DNA from: Fretibacterium sp.
GTDB taxonomy: Bacteria; Synergistota; Synergistia; Synergistales; Aminobacteriaceae
Direction: 5' to 3'
NCBI GenBank assembly: GCA_012520235.1
Contig: JAAYOR010000115.1
Location: 1-34,396 of the forward strand
DNA: 34,396 nt
Notes under the pieces: generated by a model
Seen by the model: the letters and a program-made list of their open reading frames with translations, nothing else
What the model was told of the DNA's origin: nothing
Database searches by the model: none
Shown: one piece after another, positions 23,266 to 27,452 of the stretch
Numbering within the stretch: the stretch's first letter is position 1
Layout: every line of letters begins with the position of its first letter
Position numbers and translations under genes: made by a program

Positions 23266-23292
23266 AAAAACCCGCTGTGAAGCGGGTTTTTT
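23266..23292 (+). terminator. Intrinsic terminator after tRNA-Ser
   Basis: AAAAACCCGCT pairs with AGCGGGTTTTTT around a short GTGA loop, ending in six Ts. Confidence 0.85.
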
Positions 23293-23399
23293 GATTCCCC
23301 TGCCCCCGGCCGGAGGGCCGAAGTTTTTGTTTTTAAGGGGCCTGACTTCCGACCTGACCGGCTCCTCTGATGATAAGGCTCCCGCAGATTGTTACTTTT

Positions 23400-23428
23400 T
23401 TGTCACTCATCCGACAGCTCCTTTAAAG
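23400..23428 (+). promoter_or_regulatory. Possible promoter for the alkaline phosphatase gene
   Basis: TTGTCA at 23400-23405 lies 16-17 bases before TTTAAA/TTAAAG at 23422-23428, about 55 bases ahead of the start codon. No convincing Pho box is seen, so phosphate control is not shown. Confidence 0.35.
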
Positions 23429-23479
23429 GCTCACCGGTTATCCTATAAACAAACCTTTCAAGGAGGGGGAAACACGGTA

Positions 23480-25048
23480 ATGAAAAAGAGGTTTTTTACG
23501 CGATTTGTGTCTGTAGTTCTTTTCCTGTTCCTGATGACTGGCTCAGCCATAGCTTCGGGACAGGGAGCGGGGCCTGGAGCACCTTCCAACACCTGGACGG
23601 GTGATGCGGCGAAGTACGTGTTCATGTTCATCGGCGACGGTATGGGTTTGCAGCAGGTCAGCGCTGCGGAGATTTTTTCGGGCTCTCACGAGAAGGGCGA
23701 GATGCCCCGCATCCAGAAGCTGAGCTTCACTCAGTTCGAAGGGCAGGGCATGAGCACGACCTACTCGGCCAACTCCTTCATCACGGACTCCGCTCCGGCG
23801 GCCACCTCTCTGGCCTCGGGCTACAAGACGGACAACGGCATCATTGGCATGGACCCTGCCAAGAAAGTGCGCTACTTCAGCGTTGCGGACGCGGCTAAAG
23901 AGAAGGGGATGAAGGTGGGCATCGTCTCCTCCGTCTCCATCAACCACGCGACCCCGGCGGCCTTCTACGCTTACGTTCCCTCCCGCAACGACTACTATGG
24001 CATTGGGATGCAGCTGATCGACAGCAAGGTGGACTACTTTGGCGGCGGCGGTTTCCATCAGCACCAGGGCAAGGAGAAGGACAAGAAGAGCCTCTATGAG
24101 ATAGCTGCCGAGAAGGGAATAACGGTGCTACGCGACAGAGATTCCATCATTAACTACAAGGGTGAGGGCCGCGTGTTTGCGGTGAACCCTGTCCTGGACT
24201 CCAGCAGCGCCATGCCCTACGCTATCGACAGGGGGGAGGGCGAGCTCTCCCTGGCGGAGTTCACCCGGAAGGGCATTGAGCTCCTGGACAACCCTAACGG
24301 CTTCTTTATGCAGGTTGAGGGCGGTAAAATAGACTGGGCCTGCCACGCCAACGACGCGGCGACCTCCATCAAGGATGTCTTTGACTTTGACGAGGCGGTC
24401 CAGGAGGGCATCGCCTTTGCCAAGGAGCACCCGAATGAGACCCTGATCATCGTCGTGGGTGACCATGAGACCGGTGGGATGAGCATTGGGTTTGCCGGCA
24501 CCCAGTACGTCACCTTCTTTGAGAAGATAGAGTCTCAAAAGGAGTCCTACACCGCCTTTGACAAGAAGATAGCGGCTTGCCGCGAGGACGGCAAAAAGAG
24601 CTTCTGCGACTTCTTCCCCTCCATCACCGAGAGCTTTGGGCTCCTGAACCTTCCCGAGGCAGAGGTTGTCTCTCTTAAGGAGGCGGCGGAGAAGGGTGAT
24701 GAGTCGGCGAAGAAGAAGCTCTCCATGAACGTCTCCCCTCTGGAGCTCCAGGATCTTCAGAACGCCTTCGAGCGCAGCATGAAGGCCGAGAAGGAGAGGT
24801 CGAAGGACGAGCAGACCTTCCTGCTTTACGGCGGCTACGAGCCTCTGTCCATCCAGGTGACCCATATCCTCAACAACAAGGCCGGCATCGGCTGGACCAC
24901 CTACGCCCACACCGGTATCCCCGTACCCGTCTATGCTCATGGGGTTGGAGCCAAGCTCTTTGAGGGCTATTACGACAACACGGACGTGGCCTGGAAGACC
25001 TTCTCCGTCATGAACCTGACCCCGAAGGAGCCTCTGCAGGTCAACTGA
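23480..25048 (+). CDS. phoA: Exported alkaline phosphatase
   Basis: A periplasmic metal-dependent phosphomonoesterase of 522 residues. The signal peptide MKKRFFTRFVSVVLFLFLMTGSAIA is followed by the core. Asp53 in MFIGDGMG and the nucleophile Ser104 in TDSAPAATS match the E. coli PhoA pattern. Metal ligands continue in EGGKIDWACHANDAA, VVGDHETGG and the C-terminal AHTGIPVPVYAHG. ATG 23480 follows AGGAGGGGG at 23461-23469 and starts the signal peptide. About 60 in-frame codons upstream lack coding character. It stands alone between the tRNA terminator and its own terminator. Confidence 0.93.
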   Translation: MKKRFFTRFVSVVLFLFLMTGSAIASGQGAGPGAPSNTWTGDAAKYVFMFIGDGMGLQQVSAAEIFSGSHEKGEMPRIQKLSFTQFEGQGMSTTYSANSFITDSAPAATSLASGYKTDNGIIGMDPAKKVRYFSVADAAKEKGMKVGIVSSVSINHATPAAFYAYVPSRNDYYGIGMQLIDSKVDYFGGGGFHQHQGKEKDKKSLYEIAAEKGITVLRDRDSIINYKGEGRVFAVNPVLDSSSAMPYAIDRGEGELSLAEFTRKGIELLDNPNGFFMQVEGGKIDWACHANDAATSIKDVFDFDEAVQEGIAFAKEHPNETLIIVVGDHETGGMSIGFAGTQYVTFFEKIESQKESYTAFDKKIAACREDGKKSFCDFFPSITESFGLLNLPEAEVVSLKEAAEKGDESAKKKLSMNVSPLELQDLQNAFERSMKAEKERSKDEQTFLLYGGYEPLSIQVTHILNNKAGIGWTTYAHTGIPVPVYAHGVGAKLFEGYYDNTDVAWKTFSVMNLTPKEPLQVN

Positions 25049-25130: not shown

Positions 25131-25255
25131 GATAGGAGGGCCGGCCGACGGGAGAGCTGAGGCCCTCTCGCAAAAAGGAGCCGCTGTAGATTGGTTTGGC
25201 GCTACCCTGAGAGGCTCGAGATGCGGTTGCGCGGACGCTGAAGGAGGAAAAGTTA

Positions 25256-25384
25256 TTGTACATAGATGAAAGTCAAGCGAAGAAAAAAGTTTTCAGAGGC
25301 AAGAGCATGGTTCTCGCCGTCGTGCTCTTCACCATCGGGGCCCTGTTTATACCCACTGGCTTTGAGCGGACTCATCCGGGGTAG
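25256..25384 (+). pseudogene. N-terminal part of the YibE/F gene, cut off by an in-frame TAG
   Basis: From TTG 25256 (AAGGAGG at 25241-25247) the frame encodes a short charged head with AKKKVFRGKS, a membrane segment MVLAVVLFTIGALFIP, and TGFERTHPG. It then reaches TAG at 25382-25384. The same frame continues without shift into RVKVEVLSTNDAN and the rest of YibE/F. YibE/F proteins normally carry exactly this N-terminal helix, so the two pieces are one gene with a nonsense codon. Confidence 0.75.
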
Positions 25385-25393
25385 AGGGTCAAA

Positions 25394-26431
25394 GTGGAAG
25401 TCCTCTCGACTAATGATGCGAACATCCGCCAGTTCGGGATCGTGAAGACAGGAGAGCAGTCGCTCAAGGTCCGGGTTTTAAGCGGTGAGAAGAAGGGAGT
25501 CGAGGCGGAGGCGGTCAACCTCATGATGGGGCGCCTGGAGTTCGACAGAGTTTATCAGGCCGGAGATATCGCTTTGGCCACCATTGATTCATCCGGTGAT
25601 CGTGTCCTTCAGGTGACCCTGGTGGACTACTACAGGGTGGATAAAGAGGCCTGGCTCCTGGTTATCTTTGCCGTGCTGCTGGTAGCGTACGGGGGCTGGA
25701 CGGGCGCTCGGTCGCTTTTGTCCTTCCTGTTCACGGCGATGCTCCTTTGGAAGGTCCTCCTGCCGGGGCTGCTTAAAGGTTGGGATCCGGTGCTCTCCTC
25801 ACTGTTGATCTCCGCGATACTCTGCGTCGTTATCATCCTGCTCGTCAGCGGGATAGACAGAAGAGGGATAACGGCGATGCTGGGCTCCCTGGCGGGGGTT
25901 GCCGTCACCTGCGTTATGGGGGTGATTTTCGGGGAGCTGTTCTCCGTGCACGGGGCGGTCAAGCCCTTCTCGGAGACTCTGCTCTACAGCGGTTTTGCGC
26001 ACCTGGACCTGACCAGGATCTTTTTGGGCGGGATCTTCCTGGCCTCCTCGGGCGCCGTCATGGACCTTGCCATGGACATCTCCTCTGCCCTCAACGAGTT
26101 GATTGAGAAGAGGCCGGACATCCCGCGGGGAGAGCTGATCCGCTCTGGCATGACCGTGGGGCGGATGGTGATCGGCACCATGACCACCACTCTGCTCCTT
26201 GCCTATACGGGAGGTTTCACGACGCTTCTCATGGTCTTCATCGCTCAAGGGACCCCTATAATCAACATTCTGAACATCCAGTACGTGGCTGCAGAGGTCC
26301 TGCACACGATGGTCGGCAGCATCGGGCTGGTCACAGTCGCGCCGCTGACCGCTGTTCTGGGCGGCTATTTCTTGACGGCCGGAAGGAAGCTCCCGCACGG
26401 GAGCGAGGTCGAGCCGGCTGGCGCCGATTGA
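25394..26431 (+). CDS. YibE/F-family membrane protein (main part of the amber-interrupted gene)
   Basis: A multi-pass membrane protein of the YibE/F family, function unknown. From GTG 25394 it has 345 residues: an N-terminal soluble beta-rich domain (about residues 1-85, with GIVKTGEQSLKVRVLSGEKKG), then about seven or eight helices. Conserved family stretches include YGGWTGARSLLSF and SSGAVMDLAMDISSALNEL. Frame and similarity run upstream through an in-frame TAG to TTG 25256. A stop-restart at GTG 25394 is possible: AGAGGG lies just before it, overlapping the TAG. The restarted protein would lack its first membrane helix. Confidence 0.85.
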   Translation: MEVLSTNDANIRQFGIVKTGEQSLKVRVLSGEKKGVEAEAVNLMMGRLEFDRVYQAGDIALATIDSSGDRVLQVTLVDYYRVDKEAWLLVIFAVLLVAYGGWTGARSLLSFLFTAMLLWKVLLPGLLKGWDPVLSSLLISAILCVVIILLVSGIDRRGITAMLGSLAGVAVTCVMGVIFGELFSVHGAVKPFSETLLYSGFAHLDLTRIFLGGIFLASSGAVMDLAMDISSALNELIEKRPDIPRGELIRSGMTVGRMVIGTMTTTLLLAYTGGFTTLLMVFIAQGTPIINILNIQYVAAEVLHTMVGSIGLVTVAPLTAVLGGYFLTAGRKLPHGSEVEPAGAD

Positions 26432-26559: not shown

Positions 26560-27324
26560 TTACGGCTGCGGGTTCGGAGGACTGAAGAGCATCGTCGCGT
26601 GTCCCGTGGTGCGGGTTGCGTTTGAAAGGGTGTCTGAGGAGTTGCCGCGCTCCATCAGGAGCGTCTGGGTTGCGTCCAGGGCCTTCATCAGCGAGAGGAA
26701 GAGCCGCGCCCCTCTGGGAGAGTCGATGTCCAGGCTGTTCAGGCGGTTCAGCTCAAAGTTTTGGATCGCTCTCAGGCTTTTTTCGTCCTCAGCGTCAGAC
26801 TGGGCCCTTGGTTTGTAATGGGAAAGGTCCATGCTCAGGACGACGATGCCGCCGTCCTCAAGGAGGAGCTCCAGGATGCGCCGGACCCGGAGGACCTGGA
26901 GGTCGCTCGCGCTGCTGCGGACGAGGAGGGGCAGCACCGGGACGTCTCCAAAGAAGCGTCGGACCCTCGGGATGTGCTCGGTGATCGAGTGATCACGCGA
27001 AAAGATACTGTCGTGGCTCAGGGCGGCCCCGGTCCTCTGAAGGCGTTCCGCTCCCTCCCGGTCCGCTCTCAGAGGGCCGGAGGGCGTCGACCAGTCGTGC
27101 CCGCAGTGGACGATATTGCGTCGCGCTCGCAGGTAGTGATCCGGGCCTATCAGGACGACGCGCGGCGGGTTGGGGCAGAGCTCCGCAAGCCGTACGTACA
27201 ACGCATCGATCATGGGGGCTGCAATGTCGTGGTGGGGGCTCAGGGCCCCGATGAGAGGCGCGGCCTCAAGGAGAGCAGCCTTAAAAGAAAAAAGGAGAGT
27301 CAGGAGGAGGATACCTTTTTTCAT
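26560..27324 (-). CDS. Memo-like protein (AmmeMemoRadiSam system protein B family), exported
   Basis: A 254-residue member of the Memo/AMMECR-B family, which share a fold with LigB-type extradiol dioxygenases but have no settled function. Characteristic pieces are SPHHDIAAPMIDALY, VVLIGPDHYL, SRDHSITEHIPRVRRFFGDVPVLPLLV, and VVLSMDLSHYKP, with histidines in the expected metal-site places. ATG 27324 is chosen because a signal peptide follows at once (MKKGILLLTLLFSFKAALLEAAP), with AGGA upstream. Most Memo proteins are cytoplasmic, so the signal peptide is unusual. No AMMECR1 or radical-SAM partner is adjacent. Confidence 0.85.
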   Translation of the reverse strand: MKKGILLLTLLFSFKAALLEAAPLIGALSPHHDIAAPMIDALYVRLAELCPNPPRVVLIGPDHYLRARRNIVHCGHDWSTPSGPLRADREGAERLQRTGAALSHDSIFSRDHSITEHIPRVRRFFGDVPVLPLLVRSSASDLQVLRVRRILELLLEDGGIVVLSMDLSHYKPRAQSDAEDEKSLRAIQNFELNRLNSLDIDSPRGARLFLSLMKALDATQTLLMERGNSSDTLSNATRTTGHATMLFSPPNPQP

Positions 27325-27382
27325 GTCGGTTTCTGTCCTTGTAATAAGGCTCTTTTTGAAGGGGCAGCGGCGTGAAAAAGAA

Positions 27383-27452
27383 AGTTCAAAGTTCAAAGTT
27401 CAAAGAAATTTCAACCCTTAATTTGAACTTTACAAACTTGATAACTTTGAAC
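27383..27452 (-). repeat. Dispersed intergenic repeat, copy 2: core plus 3 heptamers
   Basis: The inverted partner of 12599-12703. The 62-base core at 27391-27452 differs at three positions from the reverse complement of copy 1. The heptamer AGTTCAA occurs three times at 27383-27403, against eight units in copy 1. Confidence 0.85.

Follow-up and report, generated by a model that had tools for sequence, protein, structure and literature searches.

A yibE/F-like membrane protein gene interrupted by a single in-frame amber codon in an uncultured Synergistaceae bacterium

Background

Recent pseudogenes created by a single substitution occur in bacterial genomes. They carry one nonsense codon in an otherwise undecayed frame, and their orthologs are intact. 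In pyrrolysine or UAG-selenocysteine recoding, an in-frame TAG is likewise followed by a conserved reading frame. Here we examine such a TAG in a 34,396-nucleotide stretch of DNA (the window) from an uncultured Synergistaceae bacterium. The interrupted gene is an ordinary yibE/F-like membrane protein gene, so far uncharacterised. Like other members of the YibE/F-like family (PF07907), it encodes a complete domain, and the N-terminal transmembrane helix, the hydrophilic segment and the part with multiple transmembrane helices are arranged as in the orthologs. It differs from them in a premature TAG at residue 43, whereas the genes of the relatives are intact.

With the recent pseudogenes the locus shares the single nonsense codon, the undecayed frame and the intact orthologs, and we see no notable difference from them. 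With the recoding systems it shares the TAG and the conserved frame downstream, but here no PylS was found, the tRNA-Sec reads UGA, the relatives have glutamate at the site and TAG is a normal stop. The interruption has an ordinary origin. We consider it very probable that the TAG is an isolated recent nonsense mutation or else reflects strain variation or an error in the assembly consensus.

Results and discussion

Structure and neighbourhood of the gene

The initial annotation had described an AAGGAGG motif and a TTG start at 25256, a TAG at 25382-25384, and a frame that continues behind it with similarity to YibE/F. All of these are present as described (positions are those of the window):

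25241..25247, + strand: Shine-Dalgarno site AAGGAGG of the TTG start, anti-SD duplex -11.7 kcal/mol
25256..25381, + strand: 5' part of the yibE/F-like gene, 42 codons with TTG start, N-terminal transmembrane segment and linker
25382..25384, + strand: in-frame TAG at residue 43; GAG or GAA (Glu) in relatives
25385..26431, + strand: remaining frame with an extracytoplasmic-type segment and the whole YibE_F domain, stop TGA at 26429-26431

Downstream of the TAG, the same frame stays open without interruption up to this TGA, and the one stop is the only damage found over 391 codons. When the stop is read as X, the 391-residue product matches PF07907 with 3e-79; the part behind the stop alone reaches 2e-79. 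At 267 bits, the match lies far above the curated cut-off of 27.2, and it covers positions 3-239 of 241, all of them after the TAG. Hydropathy predicts a multi-span membrane protein with an N-terminal transmembrane helix. The peaks place this first helix (TM1) at residues 18-36, before the stop, at about 25307-25363.

The next gene upstream proved to be a syntenic neighbour:

23291..25048, + strand: alkaline phosphatase gene (PF00245, 1.7e-71)

The name that the initial annotation had given to this neighbour thus seems wrong. An alkaline phosphatase match was found beside yibE/F at 23 of the 24 loci searched in relatives, with some loci representing the same genome twice, which suggests that the locus is inherited vertically in the Synergistota. 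The order of the two genes is conserved across Synergistota families, and this may be a hint that the uncharacterised YibE/F protein is functionally linked to its neighbour. Directly 3' of yibE/F, on the opposite strand (26560-27396), lies a gene for a Memo-like protein (PF01875).

Codon at the site in related genomes

A search for orthologs, covering 61 genomes within the same family and order, found them in many genera. Ahead of the stop, the 42 codons can be aligned with the N-termini of the relatives' proteins (14-16 identical residues of 36-38, including the FERxHPG stretch), and the parts before and after the TAG therefore belong to one ancestral frame. Both TM1 and the 'PTGFER.HPG' stretch of the pre-stop segment can be aligned to intact orthologs, as can the segment behind the stop. 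The closest orthologs pass the site without a stop (...PTGFEHEHPGERVKIEV, ...SSGFEREYSGERVGVEV, ...SSGFEREHSGERAKVQV), while the window reads ...PTGFERTHPG*RVKVEV, the asterisk marking the TAG.

Among the nearest relatives compared, none has a stop at the equivalent codon. G020 has GAG there, G030 and G001 have GAA, and all three belong to genus g2; in G034 and in the genomes of genus g3 it is GAG, again before Arg-Val. Since the nearest relatives carry these glutamate codons, the TAG is one substitution away, a single change being enough to turn GAG into TAG. A sense codon one substitution from TAG, together with intact orthologs, is what is expected of a recent pseudogene. A comparison of this codon with relatives had been proposed in the initial annotation, and the answer is glutamate, one base from TAG. 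Taken together, the evidence reduces the origins suggested there to a mutation or an error in assembly or consensus. Only one ortholog, that of G030 (L005), was flagged for an internal TAG; a shared amber codon was rejected here, as this TAG is the ordinary stop at the C-terminal end.

Behind the stop, the yibE/F frame is about 70% identical to its relatives, and the neighbouring phosphatase 65-70%. The differences in yibE/F fall mostly on third codon positions (0.54-0.61, versus 0.17 for second positions). Such a third-position bias, along with an identity like that of the phosphatase, indicates that selection acted on the frame until a short time ago. This is compatible with a new mutation, a strain allele or an error in the assembly.

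One branch of our preferred explanation is that the TAG might stem from an error in sequencing or in the consensus, or be the allele of a minority strain, with the gene intact in most cells. The genome is fragmented into 196 contigs, its nearest relatives are metagenome-assembled genomes, and the gene is undamaged elsewhere, all of which would be in keeping with such an origin. However, the site lies in the middle of a contig, where edge artefacts are unlikely, and the change is a substitution rather than a homopolymer indel. We regard this version as a serious possibility, at somewhat less than an even chance.

Internal stops and decoding capacity of the genome

As a background sample, 589 kb, about a quarter of this genome, were compared by tblastn with the ORFs from 971 kb of the family relative G030. 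This yielded 105 stretches of at least 40% identity with 35,886 residues in total. Apart from the yibE/F TAG, no stop in them was flanked by truly conserved sequence on each side. Three other stops were flagged, all of them TGA codons in one locus (L110), but they arise where a glmU-like gene is overlaid by an alternative frame: the relative's stop-to-stop ORF extends upstream of its real start and over this gene in the other frame. Nothing pointed to internal stops being widespread in this genome, and because the TAG is the sole true internal stop in the sampled conserved frames, it looks sporadic. Scanning for interrupted genes by codon usage gave no useful information: most of the flags fell on adjacent genes that share a frame, and the stop in yibE/F itself went undetected.

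Suppression of the amber codon, or its decoding by a dedicated tRNA (pyrrolysine, selenocysteine or suppressor), would account for the frame that is intact past the TAG, and the genome does have a tRNA-Sec gene (L082, G000:C9:359-452). The anticodon of this tRNA is UCA, however, which reads UGA, and not the CUA that UAG-selenocysteine would call for. A CUA anticodon was not found in any of the 33 tRNAs above cut-off, a set that is incomplete and drawn with a model (RF00005) that tRNA-Pyl can escape. In this fragmented genome, the tRNAs for Ala, Ile, Asn, His and Tyr are among those missing from the recovered set, and a suppressor tRNA could therefore have been missed as well. PylS (TIGR02367) did not exceed the curated cut-off in any of 61 genomes, this one and 60 relatives; one of 14 control genomes passed it. 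Weak matches to the profile lay far below the cut-off and were similar in nearly all control genomes. From their lengths, these are probably ordinary class II aminoacyl-tRNA synthetases.

RF1 is intact, TAG ends 56 of the 243 long ORFs (23%) in the 589 kb sampled, and several genes of the window terminate in it. TAG is thus not depleted, nor is RF1 lost, as would be expected if the codon had been reassigned. Further in-frame TAG codons were absent from the sampled conserved genes, and the glutamate found in relatives also speaks against a decoded amber codon. A literature search on Synergistota and pyrrolysine gave nothing relevant, and one on YibE returned unrelated words only. General recoding had been called unlikely from the outset, and the intact RF1, the lack of a PylS above cut-off, the lack of a CUA anticodon among the tRNAs recovered and the normal use of TAG as terminator agree with that judgement. 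Suppression, another of the options raised initially, loses ground with no recoding parts found; we regard suppression or dedicated decoding as extremely improbable.

The UCA anticodon of the tRNA-Sec also means that internal TGA codons in this genome should be read with selenocysteine in mind. As the tRNA is encoded, the genome likely encodes UGA-selenocysteine proteins.

Restart behind the stop

A possible restart codon follows shortly after the TAG:

25394..25396, + strand: GTG with GAGGG 5 nt upstream; not conserved, ordinary strength

Translation restarting here, nine bases past the TAG, would produce 345 residues with the whole YibE_F domain. The short distance, the GAGGG and the position of the entire PF07907 match behind the TAG favour such a restart. 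On the other hand, the product would be without TM1, and the predicted anti-SD pairing of -6.3 kcal/mol (compared with -11.7 for the TTG start) is equalled or surpassed at 58 of 217 internal start codons (27%) in the long ORFs of the window. Moreover, the GAGGG run stems from ancestral Glu-Arg-Val codons and is shared with G020, where the start codon is absent. Among the relatives compared, the GTG is not conserved. For the restart proposed in the initial annotation, an ordinary ribosome site and a GTG that is not conserved give no positive support, and we judge it unlikely. It is highly improbable that the amber codon yields two functional products, a membrane peptide of 42 residues and a YibE_F core restarted without TM1, in a lineage-specific stop-restart arrangement. 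If true, a functional stop-restart gene would amount to a minor oddity in a single lineage.

Conclusions

We prefer to read the TAG as an isolated nonsense mutation of recent date, with strain variation or an erroneous consensus base as the alternatives. The yibE/F-like gene would have been inherited vertically behind the alkaline phosphatase gene in the Synergistota until a single substitution changed the GAG codon of a conserved glutamate to TAG. Translation would then end after 42 residues, just beyond the first transmembrane helix, and the gene would only recently have become a pseudogene, either in this strain or in some of the population sampled. Alternatively, the TAG base may be an error of the assembly consensus. 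We infer the loss of the full-length product and its recent origin, as well as any choice between mutation and error.

The same genome carries a second yibE/F paralog that is intact and about 32% identical (L002, G000:C152:10940-11641). This copy could lower the cost of losing the interrupted one.

For annotation, the yibE/F gene is best labelled interrupted, or flagged for a probable base error, and not treated as a case of recoding; the finding means little beyond that.
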